Assembly: GCA_003141895.1 (NCBI GenBank)
Contig: PLNT01000014.1
Location: 1-64,000, forward strand
Direction: 5' to 3'
Source of the DNA: Bacteroidales bacterium
Lineage (GTDB): Bacteria > Bacteroidota > Bacteroidia > Bacteroidales > VadinHA17
DNA: 64,000 nucleotides
Position 1 is the stretch's first letter. Each line of letters starts with the position of its first letter. The notes under the pieces were generated by a model, which was not told the DNA's origin, did not search any database, and saw nothing but the letters and a program-made list of their open reading frames with translations. The position numbers were made by a program, and so were the translations under genes. Below are positions 476 through 23,154 of the stretch, one piece after another.

Positions 476-1306
476 TTATTTTTTAACCAATTCAACTCTG
501 CGATTCAGGGCCTTACCCTCTTCAGTATCATTAGTTGCAACAGGCGAAGTGGGTCCGTCGCCACAGGCCATGAGCCGTGAAATGCTAATTGAATATTGGG
601 ATATGAGTGCATTTACAACTGATGCTGCCCTGTCCATCGAAAGTTTAATATTAGCATCGTATGCTCCGGTATTATCAGTATGCCCGACAACATAAAGCTT
701 TAGATCAGGATTAGCTTTCAGCAGTTTATTAATTTCCTCCAATGTCGGTTTTGATTCAGGTTTCAAAGTTGATTTTCCAGTATCAAAGTAAATGCCATAT
801 ACTGCAACTTTCCCCGATTCTTTAATGCTTTTCATGAGACTATTAGCATCGGCGACAACATCCTGGTTCATTGCCTGTTTTTCTATAAGATGAATTGTAT
901 ATGAACCATTACCGCTTGCATAGATGTGAGCCCATGTTTCCACACCATTCTTGACAACTTTCAATACAACATTTTCCCCGGCATCGTCCCATTCATAGAC
1001 TAGCTGTCCTCCAATTTTCTTAATTGCATTTGTGTAATTCCTGACAACCTGGAGAGGACTGGGTGGCGTTACATTATTGTTCAGATCATAGTAAATGAGC
1101 AGATGATGGCCTTCAACAACCAGAGTTTTGGCGTCACTAACCTTAAATTCATATTTATCAAACTGAAGATCATCATATCTGTAAATATGGTAACCGGGCA
1201 TCCTTGTAAACAAAGGAGAATCTTTGCTTCCTTCTGCATCCTCCTGGGCAAATAAAGGTGCAAAACCTGCTAGTAAAAACAAAAATAAATAAATGTGCTT
1301 TTGCAT
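476..1306 (-). CDS. OmpA-family outer membrane / peptidoglycan-binding protein
   Basis: A 276-residue exported protein. Residues 1-21 are a signal peptide ending in LFAQ. Residues 22-150 have no family I recognise. Residues about 168-276 form an OmpA C-terminal domain, with the conserved GHTDNTG at about 208-214 and NRRVEL near the end, the part that binds diaminopimelate in peptidoglycan. It probably anchors the envelope; there is no N-terminal beta-barrel of the classical OmpA type. It is a single transcription unit with its own TAnnTTTG element upstream (1346-1353) and a terminator downstream. The domain assignment is firm; the precise role of the N-terminal half is unknown. Confidence 0.9.
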   Translation of the reverse strand: MQKHIYLFLFLLAGFAPLFAQEDAEGSKDSPLFTRMPGYHIYRYDDLQFDKYEFKVSDAKTLVVEGHHLLIYYDLNNNVTPPSPLQVVRNYTNAIKKIGGQLVYEWDDAGENVVLKVVKNGVETWAHIYASGNGSYTIHLIEKQAMNQDVVADANSLMKSIKESGKVAVYGIYFDTGKSTLKPESKPTLEEINKLLKANPDLKLYVVGHTDNTGAYDANIKLSMDRAASVVNALISQYSISISRLMACGDGPTSPVATNDTEEGKALNRRVELVKK

Positions 1307-1345
1307 ACTGATTTTTTTAATTAGTTAAATTAACGATCTGAGTAA

Positions 1346-1353
1346 CAAATATA
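1346..1353 (-). promoter_or_regulatory. -7 promoter element of the OmpA-family gene
   Basis: Minus-strand TATATTTG fits TAnnTTTG and lies 40 nt upstream of the start codon. The expected TTTG at -33 is not well placed, so only the -7 part is supported. Confidence 0.45.
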
Positions 1354-1400
1354 AAAATAGAACAAAATATTGAACTAGCGTCCTTTTTTATTCAGTACTG

Positions 1401-1430
1401 TTTGCAGATAAAAAAAAATTCTTATTTTTG
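1401..1430 (+). promoter_or_regulatory. Promoter of tRNA-Gly
   Basis: TTTG at 1401-1404 and TATTTTTG at 1423-1430 are separated by 18 nt, matching the Bacteroidetes primary sigma consensus. The -7 box ends 11 nt before the tRNA. Confidence 0.75.
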
Positions 1431-1441
1431 CCCGTGCATTT

Positions 1442-1514
<73 letters not shown>

Positions 1515-1524
1515 CAAAATCACA

Positions 1525-1550
1525 AAGGAAGTAGAAGGCTTCCTTTTTTT
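1525..1550 (+). terminator. Terminator of tRNA-Gly
   Basis: A 7-bp perfect stem AAGGAAG / CTTCCTT with a 7-nt loop, followed by a T run, starts 11 nt after the tRNA. Confidence 0.85.
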
Positions 1551-1557
1551 GTACAAT

Positions 1558-2193
1558 CTATTTTCTTACAGGGCCCCATTCGAGCAGGGTATTATTTTCA
1601 AAATATAGCCATGTAGTTCTGTAAATCCACTCTTCCTTGACAACATTTCCGCTTATGATCCTGTTAATCTTGTCTGCAGTACCCCAGCTGTCACTGACCA
1701 TTTCCGCTGTCATTCCTTTCCAAATCTTTCCCGCATTTAGTCTTGCAGCCATATTTGAGCCATATTTATTCCCGAGATATGAAAACCTGCTTTGTTGTTG
1801 TTCCTGTACCGGCTGGCTATTCTGATCTGCATTTTGAAACTGTGTATTTTGATTTACATCAGTAACCTGGCTGTTAATGATTGCCTGACGTTTAAAGATA
1901 AAACCTTCATTATCCTGATAAACAACATGAAGATATGTGCTATCCGAGTCGAGAACCTCTACAATTGAATCTGCCGGGATAATAACAATGACAGATGTAA
2001 GATCATTTTTGTCGGCAAACAACCGGCTTGCTGATTTTAAGGTGGCAGTAACAACTGTATCCTGATTGACAGTAATATTTTGATTTACAGATTGCTTTTG
2101 TTCGAGGGCCTGAAGCTGATCTATTTTATTTGCGTGGGCATTCAGTGGAATAGCACAAATTACGATTAGAGGGACAATAAATATTTTTTTCAT
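1558..2193 (-). CDS. Secreted SH3-like protein of unknown function
   Basis: A 211-residue protein with a signal peptide (about residues 1-21, ending LNAHA). Residues about 45-110 look like a bacterial SH3 domain (strands around VIIPADSIVEVL and LHVVYQDNEGFIFKR). A Gln-rich linker follows. The C-terminal 65 residues, containing KGMTAEMVSDSWG and EEWIYRTTWLYFENNTL, resemble the small fold of the SmpA/OmlA (BamE) type, where a KGMT-like motif precedes a W-G-P/T turn. It probably acts in the periplasm or outer membrane. It lies 42 bp downstream of the O-methyltransferase gene on the same strand and may be co-transcribed with it. The function is not known. Confidence 0.75.
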   Translation of the reverse strand: MKKIFIVPLIVICAIPLNAHANKIDQLQALEQKQSVNQNITVNQDTVVTATLKSASRLFADKNDLTSVIVIIPADSIVEVLDSDSTYLHVVYQDNEGFIFKRQAIINSQVTDVNQNTQFQNADQNSQPVQEQQQSRFSYLGNKYGSNMAARLNAGKIWKGMTAEMVSDSWGTADKINRIISGNVVKEEWIYRTTWLYFENNTLLEWGPVRK

Positions 2194-2235
2194 ATAACAG
2201 TTTATTCATTAGACACAAAAACTATACCATTTATT

Positions 2236-2880
2236 TCACTTTTTCCTGATAAGCATCAATCCATCCCGAAGAGGAATAATGATCTTCTCAATTATTGTTT
2301 GATTCCGGATCATGGAATTGAAATTTATTATTCCCCTGGCCTGCTGGTCGGTTGTATCCTTATCGAGGACCTGCCCACTCCAAAGAACATTATCGACTAT
2401 AATGAATCCACCCGGATTGACTTTTCCAATGATAAGATTATAGTATTCAATATATTCTCTTTTGTCAGCATCAATGAAAACCAGGTCAAACATGAGATCT
2501 AAACCAGGAATAATCTCCTGCGCTTTCCCTGTTAATTGTGTGATTTTTGAATCTACCCCGGCCTTCTGAAAGAACGAATGAGCAAAGGTAGTCAATTCAT
2601 CGTTGATCTCGACCGTAATAAGTTTTCCATCCGGAAGGATACCTTTTGAAAGGCATATTGCAGAGTAACCTGTAAATGTTCCGATTTCAAGAATATTCAT
2701 CGGATGCACCATTAGAGATATAAATTCCAGAAATTTCCCCTGGAGATGCCCCGAAACCATATTAGGATTTAAAAACCTTATATGGGTTTGTCTGTAAAGA
2801 TCCTCAAGAACCGGATCTTCAGGAGTCGAATAATCCTCAATATATTGTTCAAGTCCTTTATTCATATGGGAGGGGGTCAC
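2236..2880 (-). CDS. O-methyltransferase, class I SAM-dependent (caffeoyl-CoA type)
   Basis: A 214-residue cytoplasmic enzyme of the O-methyltransferase family that includes caffeoyl-CoA and catechol O-methyltransferases. The SAM-binding motif LEIGTFTGYSAICL lies near residues 60-73, the acidic residue after beta-2 is in ITVEI, and the metal/substrate segment VFIDADKREY and the following GGFIIVDNVLWSG are typical of this family. The start codon overlaps the stop of the upstream M16 protease gene (ATGA), so the two are translationally coupled. The true substrate cannot be read from sequence. Length is normal for the family. Confidence 0.9.
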   Translation of the reverse strand: MTPSHMNKGLEQYIEDYSTPEDPVLEDLYRQTHIRFLNPNMVSGHLQGKFLEFISLMVHPMNILEIGTFTGYSAICLSKGILPDGKLITVEINDELTTFAHSFFQKAGVDSKITQLTGKAQEIIPGLDLMFDLVFIDADKREYIEYYNLIIGKVNPGGFIIVDNVLWSGQVLDKDTTDQQARGIINFNSMIRNQTIIEKIIIPLRDGLMLIRKK

Positions 2881-4097
2881 TTATATATAAGAGTTGACAT
2901 TTTATTTGGTTCAAAAATATCATTTGCAGTTTCAAGTAATTCAGCTGCGGTTACCCGATCGATTTGCTTGCACAGATCTTCGATGCTGTCAATCTTATCA
3001 AAAATAACGAGGCTTTTGCCCAGGCTTAACATCAGGCTCTCATGATTTTCATATCCCCTTGCCAGGTAGCCTTTGATCTGGTTTTTTGCTTTACTTAACT
3101 GTATTGTACCTAGTTTTGTAGTACGAAGTCTTTTCAGCTCGTCCTTAGCTAACGAGATACTCTTGTTAAGATACTGACTGTCTGTTCCGAAATATATCGA
3201 GAAGACACCTGTATCGTAATAAGGATTATAGCTTGATTCCACATTGTAAGCGAGTCCGTTCTTTTCCCGTAATGAAAGGTTCAATCTTGAGTTCAGTCCT
3301 TGTCCGCCAAGGATATTGTTCAGAAGGAACATCCCCATCCGGCGTTTGTCCTTCAGATTATAGGCAAGATTTCCCATAATGCAATGATTCTGATAAGTAT
3401 CCATCTTTTTTGTAACCGAAGCCGGTTTATAAATCCAGGATTTACTATTGTTCTGAACTTTCTTATCTGTTACAATACCAGCAAAATAGGTTTTGAATAA
3501 TCTTAAAATATTTTCGTCACTGATATTTCCAACAGAGCAGAATACCATCTGATGAGTATCATAATTATTTGAGATAAAATTATTCAGCATCTCTCTGGAT
3601 ATGGATTTTACAGATTCGGGTGTACCCAGGATATTCCTGCCAATGGGCTGATTTGAGAAGATAAGTTCTTCAAAATCATCAAAAATCAGTTCTGAGGGAT
3701 TATCGAGATATGAATTTATTTCTTCAATTATGACATCTTTTTCTTTTTCGATCTCTTTTTCAGGAAAAACCGAATTAAAGCCTATGTCGCTTATTAATTC
3801 GATTGCTCTTTCGTAATCTTCCTTCAGAAATGATGCGTGAATTGCGGTTTCTTCTTTTGTTGTATAGGCATTAAGTTCTCCCCCCACATCTTCGAGGCGG
3901 CTGAGAATGTGGTAGGCTCTTCTCTTTTTTGTTCCTTTAAATAACATATGCTCGATAAAATGAGCAATTCCATGTTCAGATGCGGTTTCATTTCGCGATC
4001 CAATATTTATTATCAGGCCGCAATGACCAACCAATCCGGGTATACGGTGATGCACCAGCCTGATACCATTATCGAGAGTGTTAAGAAGTAGATCCAT
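2877..4097 (-). CDS. M16-family zinc metalloprotease (processing-peptidase like)
   Basis: A 406-residue single-unit M16 peptidase. The inverted zinc motif HxxEH is present as HFIEH (His46, Glu49, His50), with the third ligand expected in the acidic helix EKEKDVIIEEIN near residue 125. The C-terminal half carries the second, inactive M16 repeat, including the R/Y region GLAYNVESSYNPYYD. There is no signal peptide, so it is probably cytoplasmic. It is the first gene of an overlapping pair with the O-methyltransferase. A very good Bacteroidetes promoter lies directly upstream and diverges from the tRNA-Phe cassette. The family assignment is firm; the substrate is unknown. Confidence 0.93.
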   Translation of the reverse strand: MDLLLNTLDNGIRLVHHRIPGLVGHCGLIINIGSRNETASEHGIAHFIEHMLFKGTKKRRAYHILSRLEDVGGELNAYTTKEETAIHASFLKEDYERAIELISDIGFNSVFPEKEIEKEKDVIIEEINSYLDNPSELIFDDFEELIFSNQPIGRNILGTPESVKSISREMLNNFISNNYDTHQMVFCSVGNISDENILRLFKTYFAGIVTDKKVQNNSKSWIYKPASVTKKMDTYQNHCIMGNLAYNLKDKRRMGMFLLNNILGGQGLNSRLNLSLREKNGLAYNVESSYNPYYDTGVFSIYFGTDSQYLNKSISLAKDELKRLRTTKLGTIQLSKAKNQIKGYLARGYENHESLMLSLGKSLVIFDKIDSIEDLCKQIDRVTAAELLETANDIFEPNKMSTLIYK

Positions 4098-4118
4098 TTT
4101 GCAGTTTTAGTAAGGATG

Positions 4119-4150
4119 CAAAGGTACCATATCAATAAAATGATTCCAAA
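4119..4150 (-). promoter_or_regulatory. Promoter of the M16 protease / O-methyltransferase genes
   Basis: On the minus strand TTTG (4147-4150) and TACCTTTG (4119-4126) are 20 nt apart, a good match to the Bacteroidetes consensus, 21 nt upstream of the start codon. Confidence 0.7.
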
Positions 4151-4170
4151 TAGAAATTTTTTCACCAAAG

Positions 4171-4231
4171 TATTTGGTTACTCAGAATTGAGATATATAT
4201 TTGCAGTCCGAAAAGGAGGTGCCATAGCTCA
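4171..4231 (+). repeat. Direct repeat, copy A: duplicated tRNA-Phe promoter and tRNA 5' end
   Basis: These 61 bp match 4720-4780 at 60 of 61 positions (A at 4184, G at 4733). The block holds the TTTG (4173-4176) and TATATTTG (4196-4203) promoter elements and the first 14 bases of the tRNA. It sits at the left end of a 549-bp unit whose right neighbour is the intact tRNA-Phe. Confidence 0.95.
4173..4203 (+). promoter_or_regulatory. Duplicated tRNA-Phe promoter now in front of the GIY-YIG gene
   Basis: TTTG at 4173-4176 and TATATTTG at 4196-4203 with a 19-nt spacer form a complete consensus promoter identical to that of the intact tRNA. Transcription from it would run through the decayed tRNA into the GIY-YIG gene. 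Confidence 0.7.
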
Positions 4232-4296
4232 TCCCGATAGCTATCGGGAGGTAGAGCAATGAAGTGAAAAATGAAACCACTGGTTCCATGTGGTAA
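4218..4296 (+). pseudogene. Decayed tRNA-Phe copy in front of the GIY-YIG gene
   Basis: The first 14 bases equal tRNA-Phe (GGTGCCATAGCTCA). The D loop then holds a perfect 18-bp palindrome. The D arm resumes as GGTAGAGCAATG, the anticodon region keeps TGAAAA but its stem is broken, the T-arm region keeps CTGGTTCCAT, and the 3' acceptor strand is lost. It cannot fold as a working tRNA. It could serve as a tRNA-like 5' leader of the endonuclease mRNA. Confidence 0.8.
4232..4249. repeat. 18-bp perfect palindrome inside the tRNA-like D loop
   Basis: TCCCGATAGCTATCGGGA is its own reverse complement. The core CCGATAGCTATCGG recurs at 23139-23152, so it belongs to a dispersed palindromic repeat family. 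Confidence 0.85.
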
Positions 4297-4333
4297 ATAA
4301 AAGCTTTGTTTTGAAGTCTTGAAGCTAATTAGG

Positions 4334-4627
4334 ATGGTCTATTCCTGTTATATTTTATTTAGTAAATCCAAAAATCGATATTATGTTGGATATACATCTG
4401 ATATCGAGGAAAGAATTAAGCTTCACAACTCGGGTTCTTTTGGCTATAAATCATACACTTATAAAGCTTCGGATTGGGATCTTTTTTTGATTATTTCTTG
4501 CAAGACTATTGAGCAAGCTGTTTTTGTAGAAACCAAGATAAAAAGGATGAAGAGCAGAAAATATATTGAAAATATGAAGAAGTATCCGGAAATGATAGAA
4601 AAGATTCTGAAGGAATTTCATATATAA
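4334..4627 (+). CDS. Single-domain GIY-YIG endonuclease (UPF0213/YhbQ-like)
   Basis: A 97-residue protein that is essentially one GIY-YIG nuclease domain: the first motif is CYI with YYVGYT, followed by the helix ERIKLHNSG with the conserved Arg and His, and the catalytic Glu in FVETKIKRMK. The ATG at 4334 is preferred over the upstream TTG at 4319 because homologues start right before the xYxCYIL segment. The family includes homing-type and repair-like nucleases; single-domain members are common in Bacteroidetes and most are uncharacterised. Here the gene sits inside a 549-bp unit bounded by copies of the tRNA-Phe promoter and 5' half, which suggests, as inference, that the unit moved into the tRNA locus and rebuilt the tRNA on its right side. 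Confidence 0.88.
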   Translation: MVYSCYILFSKSKNRYYVGYTSDIEERIKLHNSGSFGYKSYTYKASDWDLFLIISCKTIEQAVFVETKIKRMKSRKYIENMKKYPEMIEKILKEFHI

Positions 4628-4719
4628 TCCGATAAAACTTTCTTTTATAAATACATACAACTGATTTTACAAGTGAAAAACATAAACATTGAAATAAAGA
4701 TGGATTTTTTTTGCTAAAC

Positions 4720-4780
4720 TATTTGGTTACTCGGAATTGAGATATATATTTGCAGTCCGAAAAGGAGGTGCCATAGCTCA
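4720..4780 (+). repeat. Direct repeat, copy B: promoter and 5' end of intact tRNA-Phe
   Basis: Partner of 4171-4231 with a single mismatch. It includes TTTG at 4722-4725 and TATATTTG at 4745-4752, the working promoter of tRNA-Phe. Confidence 0.95.
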
Positions 4781-4839
4781 GTCGGTAGAGCAATGGACTG
4801 AAAATCCATGTGTCCCCGGTTCGATTCCTGGTGGCACCA
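4767..4839 (+). tRNA. tRNA-Phe (anticodon GAA)
   Basis: A 73-nt cloverleaf: acceptor arms GGTGCCA and TGGCACC, D arm AGCTCAGTCGGTAGAGC, anticodon arm ATGGA/TCCAT around loop CTGAAAA (anticodon GAA), T arm with GGTTCGATTCC, discriminator A. CCA is not encoded. It has a consensus promoter and a strong terminator. Its promoter and 5' half are duplicated 549 bp upstream. Confidence 0.97.
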
Positions 4840-4845
4840 CCCCAG

Positions 4846-18243: not shown

Positions 18244-18404
18244 GATATCGATTTTTAGTTTTCTCTACTCGTATGGCTTTTCGGTACCGCCCCGTTTTTC
18301 AAGTGATACTGGTCTCCACTATTTAAATGACAGATTTAAAGATATATATTTTGAATAACATTGCAGACGTAATTTTATTAAAAATAATCGTGATTCAATC
18401 AATT

Positions 18405-23136: not shown

Positions 23137-23154
23137 TTCCGATAGCTATCGGAA
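23137..23154. repeat. 18-bp perfect palindrome between xylB and xylA
   Basis: TTCCGATAGCTATCGGAA shares its 14-bp core with the palindrome in the tRNA-Phe-like D loop at 4232-4249. The surrounding CTTTGCGACC... text resembles the CTTTG-rich repeat relics found in other gaps. Confidence 0.8.

Follow-up and report, generated by a model that had tools for sequence, protein, structure and literature searches.

The locus analysed here raised the question of how a gene for a small nuclease came to lie between a dead and an intact copy of the same tRNA gene. The window, i.e., the whole analysed stretch of 64,000 nucleotides, belongs to a Bacteroidales genome of 4.01 Mb in 46 contigs, about 96% complete. 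The coordinates of the locus are collected in Table 1. The syntenic anchor of the locus is taken to be an M16-type peptidase gene from reading its sequence, with no family search behind the label.

Table 1. Features of the tRNA-Phe locus in the window.
Feature	Position	Strand	Basis
M16-type peptidase gene (assumed label), syntenic anchor for empty and occupied sites	2877..4097	-	ORF
Apparently native leader/promoter region of the ancestral tRNA-Phe site	4098..4217	+	Leader comparison and M16 spacing
Dead left tRNA-Phe copy, nt 1-14	4218..4231	+	Identical to 4767-4780
18-bp perfect palindrome TCCCGATAGCTATCGGGA, D loop of the dead copy	4232..4249	.	Sequence, genome copies, fold
Remainder of the left copy, in decay: 3' side of the D arm, disrupted anticodon arm, then doubtful sequence	4250..4300	+	D2 repeat
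One-domain GIY-YIG nuclease gene encoding 97 aa (from the first ATG at 4334 through the stop codon, which ends at 4627)	4334..4627	+	PF01541
Probable element-side leader and promoter copy (promoter block 4706-4766)	4628..4766	+	Leader comparison
Intact, putatively restored tRNA-Phe (GAA)	4767..4841	+	ARAGORN, Rfam RF00005

A single intact tRNA-Phe was called at this locus, with an RF00005 match of 69.4 bits at 4767–4839. A 75-nt direct repeat (4157–4231 versus 4706–4780) was detected with 93% identity and a spacing of 549 bp, and within it 60 of 61 positions were identical between 4171–4231 and 4720–4780, which confirmed the repeat of the promoter and tRNA 5' end reported in the preliminary description. 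In the left copy, tRNA nucleotides 1–14 were followed by the palindrome TCCCGATAGCTATCGGGA, present in the D loop as had been described, and then by GGTAGAGCAATG..., with a second repeat (D2, 4250–4270 versus 4784–4804) of 90% identity. The left D arm and the palindrome were predicted to fold as one extended hairpin. Neither ARAGORN nor Rfam, run on the window, called the left copy as a tRNA. Its likeness to a tRNA was clear up to about nucleotide 38 and doubtful beyond, so the earlier picture of a decayed full-length tRNA body stood as regards the decay, but its "full length" claimed more than the sequence supports.

The open reading frame behind the left copy was a one-domain GIY-YIG gene, as proposed earlier, and the product matched PF01541 with E = 4.3e-12 (46.6 bits versus a cut-off of 22.6). 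It was the only plausible gene of the 549-bp unit. The closest solved domains identified by profile were those of UPF0213 (1zg2, 1ywl) and SLX1, with E-values from 9.7e-15 to 4.7e-6, and I-TevI matched only at E = 0.0033. To our knowledge, neither UPF0213 nor SLX1, the closest to the window nuclease in catalytic domain sequence, is known as a mobile tRNA-linked cassette. In 18 aligned tRNA-linked proteins, the window's included, the residues Y, S, Y, G, R, H, N, E and K were invariant; Y5, Y16, R26 and E63 (first-row numbering), which we take to be catalytic, were conserved in all 18. The tRNA-linked GIY-YIG proteins were mostly about 80–110 aa long.

Three known types of insertion were considered and rejected. 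No group I intron was matched in the window at the Rfam gathering threshold, the four matches obtained being three tRNAs and a DUF805 RNA. A tRNA-integrating genomic island was rejected on the lack of an integrase in the 549-bp unit and on the duplicated tRNA end in the window, which was the 5' and not the 3' end. A REP/RAYT system was rejected on the zero PF01797 matches in the window's own genome (~96% complete).

The history of the site was followed in 30 loci read around the tRNA-Phe site, with the M16-type anchor present in 28. The comparison of occupied with empty sites, suggested as a check in the preliminary description, was fruitful, as 13 empty sites exist: 12 from the same genus with tRNA-Phe 115–121 bp from the M16 start codon and one from the same order (L086) with an intact tRNA-Phe 101 bp from it. 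Six loci, the window included, hold something else, and for another nine no judgement was possible. The dead copy of the window lies 121 bp and its intact tRNA 670 bp from the M16 start codon. The left leader with nucleotides 1–14 matched the empty site L062 in 123/134 positions versus 92/132 for the right leader. Conversely, the right leader (4647–4780) was closer to the occupied site of G009 (103/134 versus 82/132 for the left one) and to the scar-like site of G019 (104/133 versus 91/131). Because the left leader resembles the empty site and the right one the occupied and scar-like sites, the cassette probably brought the right promoter and tRNA 5' end with it, and by the same comparison the left end appears native, with the left copy at the ancestral place. 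The duplication of the promoter and 5' part described earlier was real, but the left copy, previously assigned to the element, occupies the ancestral position and it is the right one that looks element-borne.

The other Phe sites varied in content. G005 contained the palindrome copy, a promoter copy, N gaps and a related GIY-YIG gene with a truncated C-terminus; in G009 the nuclease was present and the left copy absent. G023 carried a different, larger D-loop hairpin and no nuclease there, G008 (L067) a 62-bp unit without the palindrome, and G019 an extra spacer in what looks like a scar. The same cassette as in the window was present in RA.bin116 (L120) and fen_957 (L139). The dN/dS of the Phe-site GIY-YIG genes was 0.09–0.17 in the four of six pairs that allowed its computation, with dS near saturation and G009 left out. 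On the M16 tree, occupancy needs three changes and the supported branches force only one; the base of this tree lacks resolution and, therefore, repeated gain at the Phe site is not claimed.

Linkage to tRNA genes was then evaluated across the genus. Among the matches listed, 113 GIY-YIG loci were taken as single-domain (L110, L148 and L189 have longer open frames), and at least two listed matches, G005:C196:117-335 and G031:C88:3030-3239, are not among them. The 20 controls were long-frame matches of 377–640 aa, taken as UvrC without a family search. An intact tRNA was located within 500 bp of 43 of the 113 loci among the matches listed and of none of the 20 UvrC-type controls; in 42 of these 43 listed loci it was on the same strand, and it lay upstream in 31 and downstream in 12. 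Pieces of tRNA within 1 kb accompanied 58/113 loci among the matches listed versus 0/20 controls. The remaining 70 of the 113 listed loci had no intact tRNA in the stretch read, and 20 of these 70 were within 500 bp of a contig edge. In the tree of the 113 proteins, a clade of 50 rows was unlinked except for two incidental rows, whereas the other clades were mostly tRNA-linked. The check for GIY-YIG homologues near tRNA copies, likewise suggested beforehand, showed a strong tie to tRNA genes and their partial copies, which does not extend to this 50-row clade. The partial copies in the genus often bore a foreign palindrome replacing the D loop or the anticodon arm. Near the break, 28 of 63 partial copies had a perfect stem of 6 bp or more versus 6.8% of shuffles, which keep base composition only, and at least four of the 28 stems are the tRNA's own arms (L111, L117, L165, L216).

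In the phylum-wide sample, profile A1 matched 92 of 148 genomes and 60 of 83 genera. A non-random set of 89 outside-genus loci from 51 genomes was read (29 best per genome and 60 hand-chosen, with most array neighbours skipped and the own-genome row L262 left out). An intact tRNA was located within 500 bp in 75 of these 89 loci, always on the same strand (75/75) and representing 24 tRNA kinds by anticodon; since profile A1 was built from tRNA-linked proteins, this describes the relatives of that set and not GIY-YIG genes generally. For the genus and outside loci together, the same strand was observed in 117 of 118 linked loci.

Among 116 loci with a same-strand tRNA free of N, a partial copy of the same tRNA was detected in 103, and in 89 of the 116 on the far side of the nuclease gene. 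The control, own-genome tRNAs without a nuclease, gave a partial copy near 3/31 (2/30 plus Pro-GGG, L012, which has a short flank and was added as positive). When the tRNA was upstream of the GIY-YIG gene, far-side matches reached the tRNA 3' end in 63/115 and started at nucleotides 1–2 in 2/115 cases; when it was downstream, they started at nucleotides 1–2 in 23/32 and reached the 3' end in 0/32, all counts being BLAST matches, not copies. Such polarity fits insertion with restoration on one side. Two layouts were observed: intact tRNA, terminator-like hairpin, nuclease and tRNA 3' part (layout A), and tRNA 5' part, nuclease and intact tRNA (layout B, the window's).

The identity of the linked tRNA was compared with the nuclease phylogeny in a tree of 145 proteins, of which 89 came from outside the genus, 56 were tRNA-linked ones from the genus and 131 in all were labelled; 55 unlinked genus rows, L160, whose tRNA is on the opposite strand, and L206, which falls within the unlinked clade, were left out. 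The amino-acid labels required 38 changes versus a shuffled mean of 96.8 and minimum of 89 (200 shuffles), in a tree of few columns in which near-copies and one-genome or array rows help labels cluster. The 75 labelled outside-genus rows alone required 27 changes (shuffled mean 55.9, minimum 49). The Leu, Gly-gcc and Asn groups united rows of different genera, Lys formed two groups, and Pro rows of several genera fell in one clade also holding Gly, Thr and Ser rows. Some labels were scattered: Pro-cgg with six changes in seven rows (a value that 48 of 500 shuffles also reached), Asp with 5/6, Ser-tga with 4/5 and Val-tac with 6/11. The nuclease clades track tRNA identity, imperfectly, and so make up a natural set of compact, possibly tRNA-gene-specific nucleases.

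We consider it reasonably likely that the unit is a target-restoring, tRNA-specific cassette of homing type residing in a tRNA gene, whose cleavage activity and mobility we infer. The comparisons proposed in the preliminary description lend support to its idea of a minimal element that is directed at a tRNA gene and rebuilds this gene on one side. The widespread arrangement is most likely a form of free-standing homing element, and the sequence evidence points to a tiny selfish element that may invade essential genes without killing the host. The free-standing GIY-YIG endonuclease, a small enzyme presumably dedicated to a single tRNA gene, would cut that gene, and recombinational repair from a cassette-bearing copy would install the nuclease gene along with the missing tRNA part, leaving an intact tRNA and turning the native part that was displaced into a dead remnant. 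One intact tRNA with a displaced, dead native remnant is the anatomy observed. In layout B, the cassette would bring the leader, promoter and tRNA 5' end while the old 5' end stays upstream; in layout A, the intact tRNA would stand upstream of the nuclease with the 3' part left downstream. The palindromic hairpin that replaces the D or anticodon arm would end tRNA function and may also remove the nuclease recognition site, protecting the remnants. Repeated cutting and unequal recombination could generate tandem arrays of dead copies and whole cassettes, and the nuclease may be expressed from the copied tRNA promoter. Against the cassette reading, the intact tRNA of an occupied locus should remain a target.

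Parts of this scheme have precedents. For the restoration of an invaded gene, the nearest are the fungal mitochondrial mORFs of Allomyces atp6 and Glomus atp6, atp9, cox2 and nad3, in which, according to the accessible sections of PMC3630166, an intronless endonuclease ORF in an essential gene carries a restoring gene end and the native end is displaced. Similarly, the cassette in the window carries a restoring copy of part of the tRNA gene, and the native part is displaced and dead. The mORFs differ in residing in mitochondrial protein genes, with the 3' end replaced in the Glomus cases, and in encoding LAGLIDADG nucleases in three of the four Glomus examples and GIY-YIG in atp9; hairpin replacement, present in the remnants here, is not mentioned in those sections (PMC3630166). 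The nearest working precedent for cutting and amplifying tRNA genes is SegB of phages T4/T6, described in the accessible part of PMC13096335 as a free-standing GIY-YIG homing endonuclease that cuts inside tRNA genes and drives tandem amplification of the tRNA and nuclease gene. As in the cassettes, its gene adjoins tRNA genes, and a stand-alone ORF beside the presumed target gene was found here both in the genus and outside it. SegB is phage-borne and reported without isotype preference, whereas the loci described here are on bacterial chromosomes with clades tied to tRNA identity; that part of the report does not mention target-restoring tRNA halves or palindromic arm replacement, both of which are found here (PMC13096335). 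Group I introns with homing endonuclease genes in bacterial tRNA genes (PMC3984707, accessible part) likewise include a nuclease gene mobile into tRNA genes, as the cassettes presumably are, but there the tRNA is restored by splicing and here by a second copy, with no intron found in the window.

The palindrome was analysed separately. Its 16-bp core CCCGATAGCTATCGGG was present in 68 copies in the 4.01-Mb genome versus 0 for the reversed control and, with partial tRNA copies in 103/116 loci, the anatomy of the window is beyond chance. Many of the core copies among those read lie outside tRNAs. The core was detected in 13 of 148 sampled genomes, all of the window's class, and was absent from the 111 sampled genomes outside it, which would mean that the hairpins of other lineages differ from it. 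Twenty-six stretches contained the exact 31-mer GCTCA-palindrome-GGTAGAGC, all of them titled as Bacteroidota taxa, some of which we place in that phylum on assumed taxon assignments. An intact same-strand tRNA followed the 31-mer in 23 of the 26; two stretches stop at a contig edge and L130 has none downstream. A GIY-YIG gene was present within the stretch in 5/26 and absent in 21/26, some of them cut by contig ends (L120 and L131 come from one assembly and have the same appearance). In L136, the gene comes after the neighbouring tRNA-Leu rather than after the tRNA-Gly next to the palindrome; in L124, it comes after the intact tRNA-Lys. Palindrome copy and nuclease, treated as one unit in the preliminary description, are therefore separable, and the remnant may arise by another route.

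These data bear on the possibility that the palindromes themselves are mobile, REP-like units inserting into hairpin-forming DNA such as tRNA arms, with the GIY-YIG protein as helper or hitchhiker. The 68 core copies, many of those read being outside tRNAs, and the tRNA copies with a palindrome and no nuclease nearby (21/26 stretches) would be expected of such units, and all 13 core-holding genomes of the 148 also hold an A1-type GIY-YIG gene (within the class, core in 13/37 and GIY-YIG in 27/37 genomes, P = 0.0056, a statistic that ignores kinship). The closest solved GIY-YIG relatives include the structure-specific SLX1, and no Y1 transposase (PF01797) was found in the own genome. However, tRNA-linked GIY-YIG genes are common in other classes, where the palindrome was found in 0/111 genomes and the remnants that were read carry other hairpins; moreover, a palindrome alone leaves the restored tRNA and the far-side polarity unaccounted for. 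This explanation is considered unlikely, and the palindrome as sole cause was rejected on its absence from those 111 sampled genomes.

In the window's own genome, 36 distinct tRNA genes were obtained from the 150 of 254 first-look candidates scored, and a few may be missing. Upstream of four of the 36 (Gly-TCC, Pro-GGG, Phe and Arg-CCT), D-loop-hairpin 5' copies were located. A GIY-YIG gene was also present at the Phe and Arg-CCT copies, the latter carrying palindromes other than TCCCGATAGCTATCGGGA; the Gly and Pro palindrome copies had no nuclease in the stretch read. The genome contains four short GIY-YIG genes, two tRNA-linked and two with in-frame stops. The two unlinked genes (L058, L059) adjoin hairpin-type repeats of the GTCATTGCGAG or GTCATTCCGA kind; the one in L058 lies at about 3777 on the reverse strand of L058, and in L059 a direct repeat at 3788–4453, spaced 553–555 bp, includes an apparent GIY-YIG C-terminal end. 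The palindrome TCCCGATAGCTATCGGGA was also noticed as part of a different repeat, CCTTTAGGGGGACA...GCGGCAGGGGGT and the complement of this repeat, where no tRNA lies nearby (e.g., L007–L011, L014–L016; own genome G000), and TCCGATAGCTATCGGA at window positions 23138–23153 is two mismatches from the palindrome core. Five records (L125, L128, L132, L134 and L145), presumably all from Flavobacteriaceae genera, bore the D-loop palindrome of the window in a short 5' copy directly before tRNA-Trp, with no nuclease in the stretch; these copies could reflect one old shared insertion or several.

Cassettes also occurred in arrays. G213 (L252) contains three tRNA-Ser cassettes 323 bp apart, and G134 (L304; G134:C34:5852-11300, 1131-3900) eight tandem GIY-YIG genes about 365 bp apart. 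The L304 spacers, in the part read, contain tRNA-Met-like 3' parts and palindromes replacing the anticodon arm and in some also the T arm, and no intact tRNA was found within this 5.4 kb stretch. An apparently full-length second tRNA copy was noticed in a few loci (L111, L210, L250). Such arrays and second copies, as well as the SegB precedent in the accessible part of PMC13096335, could suggest a domesticated tRNA-dosage amplifier, a SegB-like nuclease kept for expanding tRNA copies under tRNA-targeting attack. In the loci read fully, however, the extra copies were mostly arm-replaced or partial beside one intact copy, so that tRNA dosage would rarely rise, and we find such a role quite improbable.

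The chance of ordinary tandem tRNA duplication and decay, with a nuclease caught between the copies by accident, appears very slim. Short nuclease-free tandem units do exist (the 62-bp unit of L067; L122, L126) and a partial copy was found near 3/31 control tRNAs, but at the nuclease loci partial copies reach 103/116, linkage is 43/113 (among the matches listed) versus 0/20, the same strand is kept in 117/118 and tRNA identity follows nuclease clades across genera; this association largely refutes it. That the protein is a toxin-like RNase acting on tRNA molecules, with hairpin-armed copies as RNA decoys, is hardly credible in spite of the tRNA-specific subfamilies and of copies that keep tRNA parts without the anticodon, because GIY-YIG enzymes are known as DNA nucleases and D-loop copies would be poor tRNA mimics. 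SegB, too, cuts tRNA genes as DNA, as stated in the accessible part of PMC13096335.

Returning to the target-restoring cassette, we tentatively suggest that intronless cassettes of about 300–550 bp, whose nuclease lineages are each adapted to a single tRNA gene and which invade that gene, rebuild it from either side and leave palindrome-disarmed pieces, may form an undescribed class of selfish elements of the Bacteroidota. No description of tRNA-linked GIY-YIG cassettes in this phylum was found among the papers listed in searches of one open-access PMC library. If true, target-restoring homing elements would extend from fungal mitochondria and phages to the essential tRNA genes of a large bacterial phylum. 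This would account for many of the small GIY-YIG genes and unusual tRNA fragments seen in genomes of the Bacteroidota, and would provide an example from nature of an essential gene that survives being invaded repeatedly.

Several minor observations were made. In L107, L113, L154 and L177, the nuclease frame, judged by eye, runs into the tRNA copy, and tRNA sequence encodes the last residues (...KAGSDHPD, ...RGVAQPG). A phage or plasmid vehicle for the cassette did not emerge: in IMG/VR, 21 stretches matched the window-protein pattern and none was confirmed as a relative, and for one Val-type relative no match was obtained in plasmids. This Val-type protein matched 10 Rhizobium phage records at 34–36% identity. 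Elsewhere in the window, the DUF805 RNA motif RF03081 was located at 18258–18324 on the minus strand with 70.9 bits.
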